Shown here piece after piece: positions 2,967 to 32,803 of a stretch of DNA of 34,072 bases (position 1 is the stretch's first letter; every line of letters begins with the position of its first letter). The notes beneath the pieces are model-generated. The model had not been told where the DNA came from, made no database searches, and saw nothing but the letters and a program-made list of their open reading frames with translations. A program made the position numbers and the translations under genes. Origin of the DNA: Fidelibacterota bacterium (lineage in GTDB: Bacteria; Fidelibacterota; Marinisomatia; Marinisomatales; TCS56); contig JABMQW010000072.1 in the NCBI GenBank assembly GCA_013203115.1, positions 1 to 34,072 on the forward strand, written 5' to 3'.

Positions 2967-3977
2967 TTATTCGCGAGCCTGAGTAACCAAAATATCGCTT
3001 GGAATCTTATTAATGCCAAGTTTTTCAGCAATGCCGGGATCCAATTTAAGGGCAACTTTCAGGAAATCCTGGGCACCCGGTGTGTTGCTTTGCGAATATA
3101 CCTGATATACCAAAGCATTGGCCCTGGCCAGCCAATCAATATCGAACCTTTCTAATTCTTTAACGCTACCAACCAAGGTGGGTATATGTACATTTGTGCC
3201 CGGCAACAGCATGTCCGGATTAGCAATTATGTCCTTGTTGTGCTCATAAATCAATGGCCACAGATATGGGTCGCCATAATATTCTTTAGCCAGTGCCCAT
3301 AAATTGTCACCTGATTTTATCGCATGTATGATAATTGGATCTTCGGCCACAATATTAACCGGTGGTGGTTCAATAGAAGTTATAACATCAACCTGAATTG
3401 CGGGCGCCACCAGTTGCTGTTCTGGTTGTGGCTCAGGTGTGGCGGTTATTTCGGCTGGTTCTGGTATATCCACCGGGGCGACAACAGCGGTTGAGGCTGT
3501 ATCGTGCTCAATTTTATCACCACCACCTAACCACAACGACCCAATAAGAATCACTAGCGCCAGGGCGGCGGCACCGCTGCTATATTGAATTATTTTATTT
3601 GTTCTCCAAAAATCCCGCAACGATCTGGTTCCGGACATTTCTTTTATTGGTTTTTCAGTCGCTTTCGGCAGCGGGGGAACGATACGCGCCAGATTTTCAT
3701 TAAGCTGGTTTTTAATATCGATGCTGGGGTGAAATACTATTTTGTTATGTCCCGGAATAATAATTGGTTGACCCGTTCGAGGATTAATACCCTGACGCTG
3801 TGCCACTTGACGAAGACGGAAGGTTCCCAGTCCTTTAAGGCGTACCTGTCCATCCCGGACCAAACCTTCTTCGATTGTTTCTGCCAAGTTTCTTAAAACA
3901 ACATGACAGGCTTGCTTGCTTAGGTTGGTTGCGCCGGATACTTGTTCAATCAGCTCAGAAAAGGTTATTTTATTCAT
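2967..3977 (-). CDS. HU/IHF-like DNA-binding domain, transmembrane helix, Pro/Glu-rich linker and LysM domain (HU-TM-LysM protein)
   Basis: aa 1-92 HU-like (FSELIEQVSGATNLSKQ...GLGTFRLRQVAQRQGINPRTGQPIIIPGHNKIVFHPS); hydrophobic helix about aa 134-150; LysM about aa 217-267 (IHAIKSGDNLWALAKEYYGDPYLWPLIYEHNKDIIANPDMLLPGTNVHIP). Confidence 0.85.
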   Translation of the reverse strand: MNKITFSELIEQVSGATNLSKQACHVVLRNLAETIEEGLVRDGQVRLKGLGTFRLRQVAQRQGINPRTGQPIIIPGHNKIVFHPSIDIKNQLNENLARIVPPLPKATEKPIKEMSGTRSLRDFWRTNKIIQYSSGAAALALVILIGSLWLGGGDKIEHDTASTAVVAPVDIPEPAEITATPEPQPEQQLVAPAIQVDVITSIEPPPVNIVAEDPIIIHAIKSGDNLWALAKEYYGDPYLWPLIYEHNKDIIANPDMLLPGTNVHIPTLVGSVKELERFDIDWLARANALVYQVYSQSNTPGAQDFLKVALKLDPGIAEKLGINKIPSDILVTQARE

Positions 3978-4263
3978 TTATTTGACCCTGTTCTTGGACT
4001 CGTGCTTTCAAGCCAACCGATGAGTGAAAGAAAGTTGCTTTCACCGGTGGTAGTTTAACAATCGCTTTTAAGGCCGGATTAAAGGCGTTGCGCGCAGCGC
4101 GAAGTTTAACACCAAACGTTCCCAGTCCTGGAATGGTGAAGCTCTTTTCTTCTACAAGTGTATTTGCCAGCACACCTACAGTGACTTCAAGGATTTCTCG
4201 CGTTTCCTTTTGTGTTTTTCCCAGCTTTTCTGACAGAATTTTGTTTATTTCTGCAGTGTTCAT
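3970..4263 (-). CDS. HU/IHF family DNA-binding protein
   Basis: 97 aa; EINKILSEKLGKTQKETREILEVTVGVLANTLVEEKSFTIPGLGTFGVK...RNAFNP; good RBS (GGAGGAATCGGT-ATG); overlaps the next gene by 8 nt. Confidence 0.85.
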   Translation of the reverse strand: MNTAEINKILSEKLGKTQKETREILEVTVGVLANTLVEEKSFTIPGLGTFGVKLRAARNAFNPALKAIVKLPPVKATFFHSSVGLKARVQEQGQINE

Positions 4264-4413
4264 ACCGATTCCTCCGTTGGTAAGTGAACGCGAATTTGTA
4301 AGTATATACTTAATAATTACTCAAAACAGTATATCCAAATAACAGACAAAGTCAAGAACTTTACGAAAGGAAATAAAACAGTTTGTGTTTTATTTCGGTA
4401 TTAACAGAGACAA

Positions 4414-4965
4414 TTATAAGATTTCGTTGATATTAAACAGGTTTTTTTTATTTGGGGGGATCCCAACGGCTTTTATTCCCAACCCCACATAGTAGGCAAC
4501 CATAGCAATTAAGGCCAGGCCCTCACTAATGATTGGCTGACCATCTTTAAAGACCTGTTTAAAGCGCTTTGGTCCTACTGTGTGAACCGTAATATTTTTA
4601 AGTTTTGGTGATTTCTGATAAATATTGCTTGAATCGGGAAAATAGGGGTTGTCCTGATAGGGGGTTTGGCCAATTAAAAAATTTGTGCCACACCGATTTA
4701 CATGTCCGGAAATACCAACCAATTCATCTATGCCAATCAACCGGTCAACAATTAATAAATCAGTTATTGGCAACGTGGTTTTCAACTTATCAAAATTATA
4801 GGGATTAACAATCTCGGCTGTTAACCCTTGCGGCCATAAAAAAGCCCTTCCTTTATATTGACCAATATTATGCCCCGCGATCCGTTTATCAACATTCAGA
4901 TCCACGCCCCAAGCTTCGAGGCAAGCAATCAAATAGATTGCTGTTTTATCGCAGCTATTTTCCAT
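4414..4965 (-). CDS. Diverged, short purine-nucleoside-phosphorylase-like protein
   Basis: GISGHVNRCGTNFLIGQTPYQDNPYFPDSSNIY resembles the PNP motif DHIN(L)xGxNPLxG...FPDMSxxY; MVAYYVGLGIKAVGI resembles xVARHxGxxVxGIS. Only 183 aa; no N-terminal phosphate-binding Gly motif seen. Confidence 0.5.
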   Translation of the reverse strand: MENSCDKTAIYLIACLEAWGVDLNVDKRIAGHNIGQYKGRAFLWPQGLTAEIVNPYNFDKLKTTLPITDLLIVDRLIGIDELVGISGHVNRCGTNFLIGQTPYQDNPYFPDSSNIYQKSPKLKNITVHTVGPKRFKQVFKDGQPIISEGLALIAMVAYYVGLGIKAVGIPPNKKNLFNINEIL

Positions 4966-18200: not shown

Positions 18201-18385
18201 AGCGGTTGTTTGTTTTTTTGCCAAAGCGATAGAGTTGTCAGTGAGGCCAGGGGCTGGTTAAATCCGCTGCAAGCATAGGGTTTGGCTTGCGAAAGCGCCG
18301 CTGCAAGTTGAGATATTTCCGGGACACGGTTTATAGCAGAGAAAAAAGCGACCAACCCGGCCGGTAATGTTTCACGTGAAACCAT
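15215..18385 (-). CDS. mfd: Transcription-repair coupling factor
   Basis: 1056 aa; CarD-like RID (GDFLVHQDFGVGLYRGL), MDRLICGDVGFGKTEVALR, LIIDEEHRFGVRHKERI, TLTATPIPRTLQQSL, TIIESGLDIPNANTVIINDSHRFGLAQIYQIRGRVGRS. Confidence 0.98.
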   Translation of the reverse strand: MVSRETLPAGLVAFFSAINRVPEISQLAAALSQAKPYACSGFNQPLASLTTLSLWQKNKQPLVCICDNLSEGELFYRTLFSLINKNVFYFPEPSDSVTRVPGFTPDWERYQTDLINVICQEFIGLVFTTSSALNLPLIRTDHEVGFSISVASKLNIGRLIETLDCWGYERVDHVYTPKSYAVRGCILDIFILSAGLPTRIELFGDEIESLRSFNPLSQRTETQLKKLEILPPPTAPSSSSISLSDALPSGFLSLFIHKNTQGYYLGTSANLKPDIINCLSTSFVRQTWEAKLEILTNAYRQFGNRLFIFTDSKEQIDSLDKKLPFTPQYLAAPLQKGFVLPEYSLAGYTYAELFQISSRPKQRWSVLPDKATHKQLSSLESLDWGDFLVHQDFGVGLYRGLTQIESKTATQECISIEYADGGVVYVPVDKFSRVHKYIPAGDADPKLSRLGTALWEQQKFRTKKSASAVVKELLNLYAQRSQPRGFEYQPDPELLFELETTFPYEETPDQASAIENSLNDLKQTTPMDRLICGDVGFGKTEVALRIALGVISSGYKVVFLAPTTILANQHYLTSKNRLDPIGVRVELLSRFRTPKEQKEIIRNLSAGTIDMIVGTHRLLSTDIDIPLLGLLIIDEEHRFGVRHKERIRQLKKNVDVMTLTATPIPRTLQQSLIGIRDISKIETPPKERLPIRTSIHFFNWEVIVAAIELELNRNGQVFFLHNNVEALPFYQEKIQFFFPDKNIAIAHGQMSSRLLESTMLAFYNAEIDILICTTIIESGLDIPNANTVIINDSHRFGLAQIYQIRGRVGRSNRQAYCLLVIPKNIKLTKNAYQRLKAIEYFSNLGAGYDIALKDLEIRGAGNLFGFEQSGQVATVGFEMYCKILKDAVDEAVGNLKTDLRESAQVVFGGEALFPATYINIVQDRLFFYQGLADADYPHAIKQISAELRDRFGRLPEAVNNLIYVAQLRVQSLGSGLRVINIQTDSIMGTVTAKTRFHNSVEMMSELETLLKKSSHHYRFNVDKHNDLRFEIQLPSLSTSMTMASSIVELFSPSSEK
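18368..18383. promoter_or_regulatory. parS-like ParB-binding site
   Basis: TGTTTCACGTGAAACC, 15/16 to consensus TGTTTCACGTGAAACA; lies within codons 2-6 of mfd (ATG GTT TCA CGT GAA ACC). Confidence 0.88.
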
Positions 18386-20258: not shown

Positions 20259-20274
20259 GGTTTCACGTGGAACA
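20259..20274. promoter_or_regulatory. Second parS-like site, in the mnmE-mnmG gap
   Basis: GGTTTCACGTGGAACA (reverse complement TGTTCCACGTGAAACC); 14/16 to the consensus. Confidence 0.75.
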
Positions 20275-26128: not shown

Positions 26129-29100
26129 ATGTGGCGCAAGCTAACAGTAATCTTAGTAGTATCTTGTTTGACTTTTGGTTTTGCACTTGACAACCAGACC
26201 CAGGTTATCAGCGAAGATAACACTGAAGTCGGGTTACTTAAAGCCAAGTTAGAAAGTGGTGCAGATTTAACAGCACAGGATAAAATTGCAATAGAGGAAC
26301 TGGGCTTATTGGAAACCACGGTTGCAGCAGGACCGTATACGTTTTCAGTTTCCCGGACAACCTACTTAACAGAAGACTTTGAAACTTGGCCCCCCACGAG
26401 TTGGACGCTTGATCCAGCCACAGGAACCGGCGCCTGGCTTCAAGATAGTGGTGATGACTATGGACCCGGATCAGCTCAAGAAGGAACATATTGTGCGTTT
26501 TTTAATGACTTTGATTATTCTTCTGGAACCACCGGAACAATGACATCGCCCGCGATAGATCTATCATCAGCCACAGCACCAAGGTTGGCGTTTTATTATT
26601 ATGATTCTGGAGGATCCGATGTCGTAATTGTTAAGGGATCCACAGACGGAACAACCTTTACCGACCTGCATACTACGCCATCAACAGTTACGCCATGGAC
26701 TCAAACTGTTGTTGATCTATCTGCCTATGTTGGTAACAGCACAGTTTATATCCAGTTTTATGGATCAAGCGTTTGGGGCACATCAAATCCCCATATTGAC
26801 AATTTTTCCGTAGAAGAAGCACCAACCGATCCGATCATTTCCGTATCCAGTGATTCGCTGGGTTTTGGAATGGTCCCGCCGGGAATGGCTGTGGATCTGA
26901 TTTTAACAATTACCAATGTCGGCGGTGACACCCTCAATATCACCGATATTGCAAGTGATGAGGCCGCCTTTACGGTTGATGTTACTACTGGTGTTGTGGA
27001 AGTTGACAGTTCGCTGGATGTAACAGTTACTTTTACCTCATCAACGCCGGTACGGACCGACTTTGCCGGCACACTGACAATCACCTCTGATGCCGCTTCA
27101 TCCCCGGATGAAGTTCTGCTAGGTGGCGATGCTGCCCCCACCAGCGGTGGTCCCGATACCTTCGGTTACGAATGGGCTAACAGTTACGATGCCGCCGGAC
27201 CGACCTATGCCTGGATCGATACAACCGGTGCTCTGAACCGCGTCATCCAGGGTGATGACATGCGCGGCGAGGTAACCCTGCCGTTTGATTTCTATTATTA
27301 CGGTGCCTGGTACAACAATTTCTGGTTGACTTCCAATGGCTGGGCCGGCTTCGGTGACGACCCCGGAACATCGTCCTATATTAACTACACTATTCCTTCA
27401 ACCAGCGGTGTGGAAAACATGGTCGCGGCCTTCTGGGATGACCTGAAAACAGGTCCTTCATACCATGGTGATATTTATACCAAGGTTGTTGGGACAGAAC
27501 CAAACCGACAGTTTGTTGTCATCTGGCAAGACGTATATCGTTCCTATTCGGCTATAGATGATTGGGTAACCTTCGAGATTATTCTTGAAGAAGGTACTAA
27601 CAATATTACCCTGCAGTACTATGATGTGTCTTTTGGTAATGCTACCTACGATGGTGGCTTATCCGCAACTGTTGGGATTGAGAATGCTGACGGTGATGAC
27701 GGTTCGCTGTATCAATATCTTGGTGACCCACAACTGGTTTATGATGGTCTGGCAATTGAATTTGTCGCACCCCCGCCACCAGTGTTACCGGTTGTTGATC
27801 TATCCGACGATGTTATTGATTTCGGCGGAATTCACCTTGGCCACCCGGCTGACTTTGTGCTGAGCGTAAGTAATGTTGGCGGAGCAGACTTGAATGTCTC
27901 CGATGTAACCAGCAGCAATGCAGTCTTCACAGTGGATGTTACTTCCGGTGTTGTTGCGGTTGGTGCCGATCTTGATGTCACGATAACATTCGACCCGACA
28001 GCCGAAGTTGCCGATACCGCAAATCTTATTATTACATCGGATGCGGCCTCTTCACCCGACACGGTGGTTTGTTATGGTCTTGGTTTACCGGCAATACCGG
28101 CCGATTATTTCATGACCGGATTTGAACCTGACGGTTCTTTGCCAGAAGGTTGGACTTCTGAAAATCAAAACGCTGCCTCATTCCGGCACCATAGCGGCGC
28201 CTACTCACGCTACTTCAGCGCCTGGGGTTCACCACCGCAATATATGATGTCTCAGCGCCTGGATCTGAGTACCGGCACCCACAATGTGTACTTCTGGTGG
28301 AACGAAACGGGTCTGCTCAACGATGACAGTTGTGTTGTTGAAATGTCTGTTGACGGTGGTCTCTGGACCGAAGTTGGCGTTGTTGGTGGTGGTGACAACG
28401 AAGCCTGGACATTTGAAACACTGTCACTCGGCACACCGGAATCCGACGATGTTTTTGTCCGCTGGACTTATCACCAGGGAACCGGAACCAACAACAGTTA
28501 CTACCTGGATGATATTGCCGTACCGCCGGTCTATGTCCCGCCAATGAGCTTGTTCTTCTCGGAATTCATTGAAGGCGGATCATATAATAAAGCGTTTGAG
28601 ATATACAATGGCATGGGCGCTGACGTTGATTTAGCGAACTATCTTGTGCTGGGTAATTATAATGGAAATCCATTCAATGATACCTTGAGATTCCCTGTTG
28701 GAACTATACTAGCAGATGGTGATGTCTATGTGGTTGCTAATGACTTGGCAGATGCGGCTATCATCGCTGTTGCTGATTCAATTATTGAAAACCCATATAC
28801 AACAGGAACATCCTATATTGCTAGTTTTAACGGTGATGATGTTCGTGGCTTATTCCATATTGTTGGTACCGATACTACACTCATCGACCTCTTTGGTCTG
28901 CATGATTTAGTAGATCCCGGTTCTGGTTGGGATGTTGCTGGCGTTCCTGCTGCAACTAAAGACCACACCCTGGTTCGTAAAGCTGACGTTATTATTGGCA
29001 ATATAGACTGGATGGCTTCCGCCGGTACAAATGCCGATGATTCTGAATGGATTGTTATGCCGAAAGATCATCTTCGCGCATTAGGGTCACACCCTGATAT

Positions 29101-32100
29101 CGATTTCTATGAATCTAACGACAATCTTACCGACGCTTTCCCGGTTGTTTCTGGTGTGTTGTATGAAAACATGGCCATCGATCCAGTTGACGATGTTGAC
29201 TATTTCACATTCGAAGCCGATTTCCGTGAAATTATCTCCATCGATATGTATGTATTAGACTATTCACTGCTCGATGGAGCCATTGCAATACTTGATTCTA
29301 ATGGCGTTGAGCTTGAGTATGCTGATGTTGGTTCCCCGTACAGTGGAGGTGACGAATATCTATACGATTTCGATGCACCCTACACTGGAACCTATTACAT
29401 TCTCCTGGGCTATTGGGCTGATGTAAGAGCCTCAACAGGAGCGTATGCTCTGGAACTGACAATCGATCCAGCCCCGCCTGCAGGTGCCGTGGAAGGTACA
29501 GTCACCGACCTGGCAACCACACTGCCAATGATAGGTGTCTCGGTAGAGGTCACCACTATTGATGGTGATTTCATCGCCCTGGACTCCACTGATGCTGACG
29601 GCTATTACCTGGTTGAGTATCTGCCGGAAGGATTTAATGAGATCGGTTTTTATGCTACCGGTTTCCACGCCGCCGGTTTCGGGATCAGTATTGTTGCCGA
29701 CGATACGATTGAACAGAACATTACCCTGGTGCCTGACACCATGACCCAAAGCCTGATATACTATACCGGCTTTGAGACTACTGATGACTCCGGTTCGGTC
29801 GGCGCCCTGGCTGGTGATAACTACTTCGCCGTTGTCGACACTTTCTTTGCACCGATCGACACCGTTCTGCCCGCCGATGGCGACCAGATGCTGGCTTTCC
29901 CGGAACAGGACAGCTTGACCTATCAAAGTAATGATGCCGCTTACTGGATGGCCGGTAGCGCAATTGGTCTGGCCAGTCGCGATGAAGGCTCCCTGCTGTT
30001 GCAGGTCGATGCTTTCATCGATGTTGAAAACAACTGGGACTTCTTCTATCTCGCAGTACTGCTTGATAACGGCTATTTCTATATTGATGAAGACGCTGCA
30101 ATGACCGGTTATTCCGATGGCTGGGTAACGGTTACAGCAGATTTTTCCTGGGTCCTGAATTCAGGTAGTGCTTACTTCGTTCCCATGATCTACTTTGAGG
30201 CTGACGGCTCAGTCGTTTCTGGCTGGGGTGGCGCCTTTGATAACCTCATGGCGATCTACGACGATTTCTACAATGCTCCAGTGGCCGATCTGGAAGTTAC
30301 CCACTATGAAGCGGATGCAACCCTCACCTGGGCCGCACCCGCTACCCGCGGTACGGTCAGCTATGATCTGCAACGAGTAAACTTTGAGAACCCATTCGAA
30401 GTCGACGATAATGAAGGTGTGGCTGTAGCGACTAAAGGTCCGCGACCCAAAGAAAAGGTCACCATGACCTATGAATACTCCAATCCTTCCCGCGACCTTG
30501 TCGGTTACAAAGTATACCGCCAGGATGCCCCGTTCGCGCTGGATGGACCGGCCTTCCTTGATGTAACTACCGATCTGACCTACACCGATGCTACGGTTGT
30601 AGACGGCAATTACTATGACTTCGCAGTCACCACCGTCTATGACGAGGGCGAGAGTAAGGAAACGATTGTTTCCACCAAGATCGGTGCCATCACTCAGGTT
30701 GATCCGTTCGCGGAAGACTTTGAAGGACTCAGTGGTGCTTTACCAACCGGTTGGGAGGCCTTCACAACCCAATCCGATGGTATATCTTGGACGGTCGGTG
30801 ACTCGGCAGCGGCGGATTCGGCTTTTGGTATAGGCGTTTCTTATCCTGTCCCCGGACATACTGACTTTGCCTTTATTGAGGATGGTCGTGGCGACGGAGA
30901 ACCCTTCGAAGCCTTGCTGATTTCACCATTCATCGATGCCAGCAACATGTATTCCGCCGTGGTCAGCTTCTCTGGTTACGAACAGGGCTATGCTGACTTT
31001 GGAAACACCTGGACGCAGTTGATGGTTCGTGTCGACATGAGTGAGTGGCACATCATTACCGATTTCTCCTATGATCATAATGCCGGTTGGGTCGACTACA
31101 TGGGTGATCTTGCTGAAAAGGTTGCAGGTGAAGAATATGTCCAGTTTGCGTTCTATTACTGGCATCAGGGCCTCAACTCCGGTGGCGGTAACGGAATTGC
31201 TGTTGATGACTTCGACCTGTTCGGTATTGCCGGCCCGACTAACCTGACGGCCACCGGTGCCCAAGGACAGATCGAACTAAGCTGGAGTGAACCCACCTCA
31301 CGGACGGCTGCTGCCTTCGATGAGATGCAGTTGAAACTGGTGACCGATGAAGAAATGGAAAACCGGTCAATTGATGGCTTAGCTCCCGAATTGGTAACTA
31401 ATCGCGATGTCTGTTACTCCAACTGGCTGCCCTCCACCTGGTTAACAGCCTTTACTGGTCCGGATTCAGGTTGGAGTGCCCCGACGTTTGTTTCGCTTTA
31501 TGAATTCCCGGTCGGACCGATGACCCTTGAAAAAGCGATTGCTCACGGTTATTACAATACCGGTGATGGGCTAGCCATGCGCGCCTTGATTTCGGTTTGC
31601 ATAGCTGATACGTTGGGTGATTCCTTTGATACCCTGGCAATCGATACACTCGATTTCGTTGTTGATCCAACCTATGCCAACCACTGGGATGCCGAACTGG
31701 ATTTGGTGGGTTTAACTTATGAAGCCACCGATTCCACTTACCTTAAAGTAACCTGGGAACCGTTGGACTATGGTGTAATCACCCTGTGGGGCGATGTTCA
31801 GCTATGGGTCCCTGCTATACGCATGGATGATCCGAACGATGATTATTGGTCAGGCCTGTGCGGCTATGACAGTTCCGGTGTTTTCGAACCGGCCGAACGT
31901 GACTGGTTTATCGAGATCTGCGGTACGCCGACTCCACCAGCTCTGCGTTTCAACGTCTATCGTGACGATCTGCTGTTGAACGCCGAGCCACTGGAGGAAC
32001 TAACCTACATGGATGAAGATGTTATTGTTCTTGAAGAACATGAATACTTCGTCACTGGTTTCGTGCCGATCATTCCTGCTTCCGACAATGCTGGCCTGAT

Positions 32101-32803
32101 GCTGTTCGTTGATACTGACAGTTCCAACCATGCTGCTGCCGCGGCTTTGAATACACCGCCGTCGGCGCCATCCCTGGCAGTACCGCCGGACAACTTCACG
32201 GTTGCAGTTAATAATCTGACCGGTGCCGCCAGTTTTGCCTGGGCTCCATCAGTAGAAACGGATATTGGTCAATCAGTTACTTATGATTTCGAATTGATCC
32301 TCGGTACTTATACCTGGGCCATCAACACTGAAATCACCACTGTATCAATACCCTATGCGGAACTGTATACGGAAATATTCGACAACCAGGGTGTCCAGTC
32401 TCTGACCGGTACCTGGAATGTCTTGGCTACAGATGGCTTGGATGATACACCAGCCGCTAATGGCCCAAGGAATATTACTGTAGATGTTACCGCCGTCGGC
32501 GTGGATGAAGGTCCTGCGATTCCGGATGTGTTCGCCCTGCATCAGAACTATCCGAATCCGTTTAACCCCAACACGACGATTGCTTACGATGTTCCGGAAG
32601 TAAGCCATGTACGGATCGATATCTATAACCTGTTAGGTCAGAAGATTCGCACCCTTATTAACGGTGAACATGCCCCGGCTTACTATCATGCCAGGTGGGA
32701 TGGTACCACCGACGCCGGTGCAATCGTTGCCTCAGGTATGTATATCTACCGCATTGATGCCGGTAAGTTCTCAGCTATACATAAACTGGTAATCATGAAA
32801 TAA
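26129..32803 (+). CDS. Giant multidomain secreted protein with T9SS type A-like C-terminal sorting domain
   Basis: Signal peptide (MWRKLTVILVVSCLTFGFA); MAM/jelly-roll-like modules; two Ig-like 'choice-of-anchor' modules; lamin-tail-like segment (LFFSEFIEGGSYNKAFEIYNG); pre-peptidase-like segment (DFYESNDNLTDAFPV...DDVDYFTFEAD); CarboxypepD_reg-like; FN3-like; C-terminus FALHQNYPNPFNPNTTIAYDVPE...GMYIYRIDAGKFSAIHKLVIMK. Confidence 0.9.
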   Translation: MWRKLTVILVVSCLTFGFALDNQTQVISEDNTEVGLLKAKLESGADLTAQDKIAIEELGLLETTVAAGPYTFSVSRTTYLTEDFETWPPTSWTLDPATGTGAWLQDSGDDYGPGSAQEGTYCAFFNDFDYSSGTTGTMTSPAIDLSSATAPRLAFYYYDSGGSDVVIVKGSTDGTTFTDLHTTPSTVTPWTQTVVDLSAYVGNSTVYIQFYGSSVWGTSNPHIDNFSVEEAPTDPIISVSSDSLGFGMVPPGMAVDLILTITNVGGDTLNITDIASDEAAFTVDVTTGVVEVDSSLDVTVTFTSSTPVRTDFAGTLTITSDAASSPDEVLLGGDAAPTSGGPDTFGYEWANSYDAAGPTYAWIDTTGALNRVIQGDDMRGEVTLPFDFYYYGAWYNNFWLTSNGWAGFGDDPGTSSYINYTIPSTSGVENMVAAFWDDLKTGPSYHGDIYTKVVGTEPNRQFVVIWQDVYRSYSAIDDWVTFEIILEEGTNNITLQYYDVSFGNATYDGGLSATVGIENADGDDGSLYQYLGDPQLVYDGLAIEFVAPPPPVLPVVDLSDDVIDFGGIHLGHPADFVLSVSNVGGADLNVSDVTSSNAVFTVDVTSGVVAVGADLDVTITFDPTAEVADTANLIITSDAASSPDTVVCYGLGLPAIPADYFMTGFEPDGSLPEGWTSENQNAASFRHHSGAYSRYFSAWGSPPQYMMSQRLDLSTGTHNVYFWWNETGLLNDDSCVVEMSVDGGLWTEVGVVGGGDNEAWTFETLSLGTPESDDVFVRWTYHQGTGTNNSYYLDDIAVPPVYVPPMSLFFSEFIEGGSYNKAFEIYNGMGADVDLANYLVLGNYNGNPFNDTLRFPVGTILADGDVYVVANDLADAAIIAVADSIIENPYTTGTSYIASFNGDDVRGLFHIVGTDTTLIDLFGLHDLVDPGSGWDVAGVPAATKDHTLVRKADVIIGNIDWMASAGTNADDSEWIVMPKDHLRALGSHPDIDFYESNDNLTDAFPVVSGVLYENMAIDPVDDVDYFTFEADFREIISIDMYVLDYSLLDGAIAILDSNGVELEYADVGSPYSGGDEYLYDFDAPYTGTYYILLGYWADVRASTGAYALELTIDPAPPAGAVEGTVTDLATTLPMIGVSVEVTTIDGDFIALDSTDADGYYLVEYLPEGFNEIGFYATGFHAAGFGISIVADDTIEQNITLVPDTMTQSLIYYTGFETTDDSGSVGALAGDNYFAVVDTFFAPIDTVLPADGDQMLAFPEQDSLTYQSNDAAYWMAGSAIGLASRDEGSLLLQVDAFIDVENNWDFFYLAVLLDNGYFYIDEDAAMTGYSDGWVTVTADFSWVLNSGSAYFVPMIYFEADGSVVSGWGGAFDNLMAIYDDFYNAPVADLEVTHYEADATLTWAAPATRGTVSYDLQRVNFENPFEVDDNEGVAVATKGPRPKEKVTMTYEYSNPSRDLVGYKVYRQDAPFALDGPAFLDVTTDLTYTDATVVDGNYYDFAVTTVYDEGESKETIVSTKIGAITQVDPFAEDFEGLSGALPTGWEAFTTQSDGISWTVGDSAAADSAFGIGVSYPVPGHTDFAFIEDGRGDGEPFEALLISPFIDASNMYSAVVSFSGYEQGYADFGNTWTQLMVRVDMSEWHIITDFSYDHNAGWVDYMGDLAEKVAGEEYVQFAFYYWHQGLNSGGGNGIAVDDFDLFGIAGPTNLTATGAQGQIELSWSEPTSRTAAAFDEMQLKLVTDEEMENRSIDGLAPELVTNRDVCYSNWLPSTWLTAFTGPDSGWSAPTFVSLYEFPVGPMTLEKAIAHGYYNTGDGLAMRALISVCIADTLGDSFDTLAIDTLDFVVDPTYANHWDAELDLVGLTYEATDSTYLKVTWEPLDYGVITLWGDVQLWVPAIRMDDPNDDYWSGLCGYDSSGVFEPAERDWFIEICGTPTPPALRFNVYRDDLLLNAEPLEELTYMDEDVIVLEEHEYFVTGFVPIIPASDNAGLMLFVDTDSSNHAAAAALNTPPSAPSLAVPPDNFTVAVNNLTGAASFAWAPSVETDIGQSVTYDFELILGTYTWAINTEITTVSIPYAELYTEIFDNQGVQSLTGTWNVLATDGLDDTPAANGPRNITVDVTAVGVDEGPAIPDVFALHQNYPNPFNPNTTIAYDVPEVSHVRIDIYNLLGQKIRTLINGEHAPAYYHARWDGTTDAGAIVASGMYIYRIDAGKFSAIHKLVIMK

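Follow-up and report, generated by a model that had tools for sequence, protein, structure and literature searches.

A gene pair for a small HU protein and a membrane-anchored HU protein with a LysM domain in Fidelibacterota, a candidate link between DNA and the cell wall

Introduction

Most known ways in which bacterial DNA is physically connected to the cell wall are indirect. Proteins of the HU type bind DNA with little sequence specificity. In Bacteroidetes, the HU-CCDC81_bac proteins are said to carry two HU domains each, together with a transmembrane (TM) helix and a SPOR domain, and a role in chromosome partition has reportedly been predicted for them. IHF is an alpha/beta heterodimer of two different HU-fold subunits with an intercalating proline in each. 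Among LysM proteins, Kbp also has a BON domain, and TsaP is a secretin partner described as peptidoglycan-binding in the title of Siewering (2014). RodZ is a bitopic protein with its N terminus inside, and its HTH domain binds MreB, not DNA (PMC6946637).

The window analyzed here, that is the whole stretch of 34,072 nucleotides from a Fidelibacterota bacterium (GenBank assembly GCA_013203115.1, contig JABMQW010000072.1), encodes a 336-aa protein (P0001) composed of an HU domain, a TM helix and a LysM domain (HU-TM-LysM), adjoined by a 97-aa small HU protein. As in the reported HU-CCDC81_bac proteins, HU would lie inside and a peptidoglycan-binding-type domain outside, on either side of a TM helix, and the two HU subunits of the pair recall the two HU domains said to occur in each of those proteins. 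The pair differs from that theme, and is new with respect to it, in having another wall domain (LysM plus a helical hairpin, not SPOR), HU subunits split over two genes, and a host from another phylum. It resembles IHF in its two different HU-fold subunits with an intercalating proline in each, although one subunit is membrane-anchored, arm residues are altered and the score is far below the IHF cut-off. Like RodZ, the HU-TM-LysM protein is about 335 aa long and would be bitopic with its N terminus inside, placing a domain of DNA-binding type in the cytoplasm and another domain in the periplasm; RodZ, however, has an HTH instead of HU, no LysM and no paired small gene. TsaP and Kbp have the closest LysM subtype, but no HU domain.

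If the interpretation developed below is true, a nucleoid-wall HU heterodimer would be a bacterial counterpart in principle of the linkers that run from the nucleus to the outside, and membrane-anchored HU, reported for Bacteroidetes with SPOR, would have arisen elsewhere with another wall domain. A single polypeptide with a nucleoid-protein fold inside, a wall-type domain outside and an obligate soluble partner makes such a link directly testable.

Results and Discussion

Gene pair and domain architecture

The two reading frames are exactly those given by the sequence-only reading, including the 8 nt that they share (Table 1). This overlap is identical in a second genus of the window's family (G001), and other families show spacings from -17 to +11 nt; the two genes are probably translationally coupled.

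Table 1. Features of the gene pair in the window (TM, transmembrane).
Feature	Position	Strand	Basis
Promoter-like site upstream of the pair	4328..4355	(-)	TTGACT-16-TATACT, 10/12; consensus match alone, weak
Small HU-fold protein, 97 aa, probable dedicated partner subunit	3970..4263	(-)	PF00216, AlphaFold2, Foldseek, own clade
8-nt overlap ATGAATAA of the small HU and HU-TM-LysM genes	3970..3977	(-)	ORF coordinates
HU-TM-LysM protein, 336 aa (P0001)	2967..3977	(-)	HMMs, AlphaFold2, Foldseek; 17 full-length homologues
HU domain, residues 1-99, predicted cytoplasmic	3681..3977	(-)	PF00216, AlphaFold2, Foldseek
Single TM helix, residues 128-150, preceded by RDFWRTNK	3528..3596	(-)	AlphaFold2 helix; hydrophobicity
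Disordered Pro/Glu-rich linker, residues 151-212, predicted periplasmic	3342..3527	(-)	pLDDT <50
LysM domain, residues 216-266, predicted periplasmic	3180..3332	(-)	NF008399, TsaP/Kbp chains, PF01476
Helical hairpin after LysM, residues 277-312	3042..3149	(-)	AlphaFold2; kept in homologues

The fused HU domain matched PF00216 over residues 6-93 (E 4e-22, 78.6 against a cut-off of 22.4 bits), had IHF as its top match in a sequence search of solved structures (E 2e-12), and retrieved HU/IHF chains with Foldseek (E 2e-7), Kbp appearing further down the list. Its best curated match was IHF-alpha (NF001401, E 1.5e-16), at 60 bits against a cut-off of 111. The 97-aa protein also matched PF00216 (E 7e-16, 58.6 against 22.4 bits), was modeled by AlphaFold2 with an HU fold (pLDDT 84.5) and retrieved HU with Foldseek (E 1e-7), which bears out the earlier description of the upstream gene as a soluble HU-like protein. 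PF00216 likewise matched every one of the 17 fused and 16 small homologues, and by profile and fold both proteins belong to the HU/IHF superfamily.

Two narrower HU classes were considered and rejected. PF18291 (HU-HIG) scored 28.1 bits on P0001 against a cut-off of 26.2, but PF00216 outscored it by a wide margin, and the domain is fused to TM-LysM, not to the wHTH, Ig or Gly-rich parts that mark that class. The HU-CCDC81_bac profiles PF18174 and PF18175 gave only sub-cut-off matches on the pair, matches of a kind that HUs from E. coli and other control genomes also produced, and PF18175 exceeded its cut-off in none of 244 genomes; PF00216 scored instead, and the HU-TM-LysM proteins had no SPOR match, LysM standing in its place.

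An AlphaFold2 run of the 336-aa protein using 17 family members gave an HU domain at residues 1-99 (pLDDT about 90), the helix at 128-150, and a low-confidence linker, followed by a LysM domain at 216-265 and helices within 277-312, mostly at pLDDT >=90. The hairpin is formed by helices 277-296 and 302-312 (pLDDT of the block about 90) and is conserved in all 17 HU-TM-LysM proteins and also in HU-less versions. Hydrophobicity peaked at residues 135-153. HMMs, AlphaFold2 and Foldseek thus agree on the order of HU, one TM helix, linker and LysM. Each of the 17 proteins has its best hydrophobic segment between HU and LysM, with at least as many K/R in the 20 residues before this segment as after it, and in sum well more. 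This excess on the N-terminal side indicates that HU is inside and LysM outside, so that the N-in, single-TM topology proposed earlier is strongly suggested by the charge pattern and by the modeled helix.

The LysM domain of the 336-aa protein matched the Kbp LysM model NF008399 (E 1e-11) and the chains of TsaP (3jc8, E 1e-8) and Kbp (7pvc, E 8e-7), and the Kbp LysM resembles it in both sequence and fold. PF01476 reached E 0.002 and 18.4 bits, under its curated cut-off of 20.9, and matched 11 of the 17 homologues at E<=0.01; the homologues L064 and L065 exceed the cut-off, with 24.8 and 23.3 bits. Profile and predicted fold together place the HU-TM-LysM family in the LysM family. As the subtype is that of Kbp and TsaP, not the classical one, peptidoglycan binding is not assured. 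The pair might bind DNA at the membrane with LysM engaging a partner other than peptidoglycan, by protein docking of the secretin-associated or Kbp type. The nearest LysM matches, K+-binding Kbp and secretin-associated TsaP, would suit such a partner, yet going by its title the source cited above presents TsaP itself as binding peptidoglycan, and one family (f20) has the pair in a peptidoglycan-recycling context; we regard this alternative as improbable.

Distribution and co-occurrence

In G001 the same pair stands at the same place, the two proteins being 60% and about 40% identical, so its presence in the window is not a matter of chance. Within the order (130 genomes), the window and G001 held the only long-frame HU proteins among the PF00216 matches listed. 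A profile search of the phylum (245 genomes) recovered 17 full-length HU-TM-LysM proteins and one truncated one, which fall in four families: f1 (the window's own), f19, f20 and f23. Outside the phylum, a scan of genome contigs with patterns from P0001 only returned just HU-only or LysM-only matches, a plasmid search gave no record spanning most of the query (the best were HU-only matches), and viral contigs had no matches. A literature search returned nothing relevant on tethers combining HU and LysM.

A small HU gene lies directly upstream in all 16 loci that have upstream sequence on the same contig. At the 17th (G188), a contig break splits this gene, with its start on C98 and its tail on C236. 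The small HU was recognized with its own profile (A4) at a threshold of >=110 bits, which 18 genomes reached, all other HUs of the phylum scoring <=66; the second G188 piece, at 66 bits, is the detached tail. Both proteins occur in 17 and neither in 225 of 244 genomes (kinship being ignored in the counts and in the Fisher p values), and the only mismatches, G150 and G178, are both cut by contig ends. In a tree of the HU domain, based on 92 columns only and with the f19 member as a long branch, the small HUs grouped in a clade of their own (100/99), as did the fused HUs (90/88), and each clade stood apart from the housekeeping HUs, of which pair-bearing genomes mostly carry two besides. The distribution is patchy (about 19 of 244 genomes), which shows that the pair is dispensable.

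The two halves of the fused protein can be parted. In G190 (f20), a TM-LysM half without HU adjoins the same GH3-beta-lactamase gene as in its relatives, and the genome has two ordinary HUs only. In seven f29 genomes, a TM-LysM-hairpin protein of otherwise similar build has DUF1508 (PF07411) where HU would be (loci L068-L074 of G209-G212 and G219-G221; checked by HMM in two genomes, the other five being alike by eye). The small-HU profile found no small HU in any of these eight genomes, so the small HU tracks the fused HU domain, not LysM; no other observation argues as strongly for a heterodimer. The periplasmic half must have a use of its own, since f29 and G190 keep it without HU. In G185 and G191 the neighboring alr and GH3-beta-lactamase genes are present and the whole pair is absent; G185 (95% complete) belongs to the same genus as the pair-bearing G184, G186 and G187. 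Because the two genes are so strictly paired, the small and the fused HU very probably form a heterodimer; the earlier proposal of a dedicated HU partner for the membrane protein is upheld by adjacency, co-occurrence and separate clades.

Several variants were observed in passing. In G149, a second TM-LysM gene (L067:2671-3231) directly follows the HU-TM-LysM gene and has a nearly identical LysM part, a recent partial duplication. The small HUs of f20 g54 and g56 (L084:5224-5961 and L085:1814-2539) have an acidic/Pro-rich C-terminal tail of ~150 residues and are without the intercalating proline. HUs of a second housekeeping-type class, in which one segment is lengthened (LRIEIRNFGVFEVKPTKAKPRARNPRTNEEV), occur at L003, L029, L032, L033 and L132 and are conserved in f1 and f29. 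The GTPase neighboring the f29 loci L068-L074 resembles HydF by eye.

DNA-contact residues and proposed function

The DNA-contact set comprised the intercalating Pro63, arm residues K53, R55, R58 and R61, and the NPxTG tip. Of the fused HUs, 16 of 17 retain the proline and most retain the tip; of the small HUs, 14 of 16 retain the proline. In the fused HU, R55 is replaced by V/I in 16 of 17 sequences and K53 and R61 are mostly lost; in the small HU, basic residues at 53, 55, 58 and 86 are kept, R61 is replaced by F/Y in 16 of 16, and the TG turn is mostly lost. Mean arm charge is +0.9 in fused, +4.9 in small and +4.1 in housekeeping HUs, and DNA binding by the fused HU, given its lost arm residues and low charge relative to housekeeping HU, may be weak or gone. 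The sequence-only reading held that loss of DNA-contacting arm residues across homologues would refute its tether; the proline and the basic residues of the small HU proved to be kept, whereas R55 and, for the most part, K53 and R61 of the fused HU were not, a pattern that would fit an asymmetric DNA-binding heterodimer.

The same depletion of basic arm residues in the fused HU would suit a membrane HU pair that acts without binding DNA, docking a cytoskeleton, division or synthesis protein and linking it to the wall via LysM. RodZ offers the precedent of an N-in bitopic protein whose DNA-binding-type domain serves another partner, and DUF1508 in place of HU in f29 shows that the N-terminal half is swappable. 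The nearly invariant proline and mostly kept NPxTG tip of the fused HU speak against it, as do the K/R residues at 53, 55, 58 and 86 of the small subunit, and a candidate partner protein was not found. Such a role is unlikely, if not negligibly so.

The interpretation we favor, at a probability of roughly 0.5, is that DNA is joined to the wall by a membrane-anchored HU heterodimer. A soluble and an inner-membrane-anchored subunit would make up one complex, the HU-HU part of which would bind DNA in the cytoplasm with little sequence preference; LysM and hairpin would cross the periplasm on the flexible linker and bind peptidoglycan or a wall-associated partner, and the nucleoid would thereby be tied to the wall at many places, not at the origin only. 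DNA binding, peptidoglycan binding and tether function are predictions from sequence, and DNA-to-envelope anchoring by the pair is plausible on these grounds. Retention and loss of the two genes together across one phylum is what would be expected of a DNA-to-cell-wall link. Weighing against this reading are the arm residues lost from the fused HU, the TG turn and R61 lost from the small HU, the non-classical LysM subtype, the patchy distribution, and the TM-LysM halves that f29 and G190 keep without HU. The fuller proposal, that the heterodimer mechanically joins the nucleoid to the peptidoglycan wall and that its two genes are passed on or lost only together, is tentative and falls somewhat short of even odds.

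Genomic context

In the window, dnaA is about 20 kb from the pair, with gyrA, gyrB, dciA, recF and dnaN in between, and G001 repeats this order from the pair to dnaN. Two parS-like 16-mers occur (18368-18383 and 20259-20274, with 1 and 2 mismatches; 0 expected). DnaA-box-like words number 6 against 3.9 expected, a total that is not significant, with TTATCCACA words directly upstream of dnaN and dnaA. Of the origin surroundings described earlier, gyrA, gyrB, dnaN and the parS-like sites stand, and the DnaA boxes do not as a total. The parS-like sites themselves lie between mfd, mnmG and mnmE.

These surroundings had led to the suggestion that the pair holds the chromosome or, more specifically, its origin (oriC/parS) to the envelope. 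The gyrA/gyrB/recF/dnaN neighborhood is, however, limited to f1: none of gyrA, gyrB, dciA, recF, dnaN and dnaA was found near the pairs of f19, f20 and f23, that of f23 neighboring rlmN/TsaC-type/recA genes, and in two single-contig genomes, G184 and G186, dnaA is 838 kb and 946 kb away from the pair. Origin anchoring is not conserved because neighbors differ in these families and the distance reaches 0.84-0.95 Mb; the pair also has no sequence-specific DNA-binding domain. Conserved origin linkage was rejected, and an origin-specific anchor as a general role is largely refuted and very improbable. Scattered homologues unlinked to the origin, which the sequence-only reading had itself named as a refutation, are what was observed as far as its origin part goes.

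In f20 g55 (L064-L066), the pair stands amid genes for alanine racemase, a GH3-beta-lactamase fusion, a NagK-like kinase, an SSF symporter and NamZ, which is a peptidoglycan-recycling cluster and bears on the LysM half. This setting would also suit a transmembrane regulator, in which LysM would sense the condition of the wall or fragments of it, and the HU pair would alter local DNA structure or the transcription of nearby wall genes. The f1 and f23 neighbors already named provide no constant target gene, though, and the low sequence specificity of HU-type proteins would be a poor basis for such control, so that we consider a regulator rather doubtful.

Two other proteins of the window were noted. 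A 2224-aa protein (26129-32803 (+)) combines Ig-like repeats of the HYDIN/ASH type with a lamin-tail domain, and its match to the type IX secretion sorting tail (Por_Secre_tail) is near the cut-off; this match, together with a PorD-like gene in a relative, suggests an FCB-type phylum. A 183-aa protein (4414-4965 (-)) has no Pfam or NCBIfam match; G001 has a conserved counterpart (41%), located there between the pair and a yggS-like gene.
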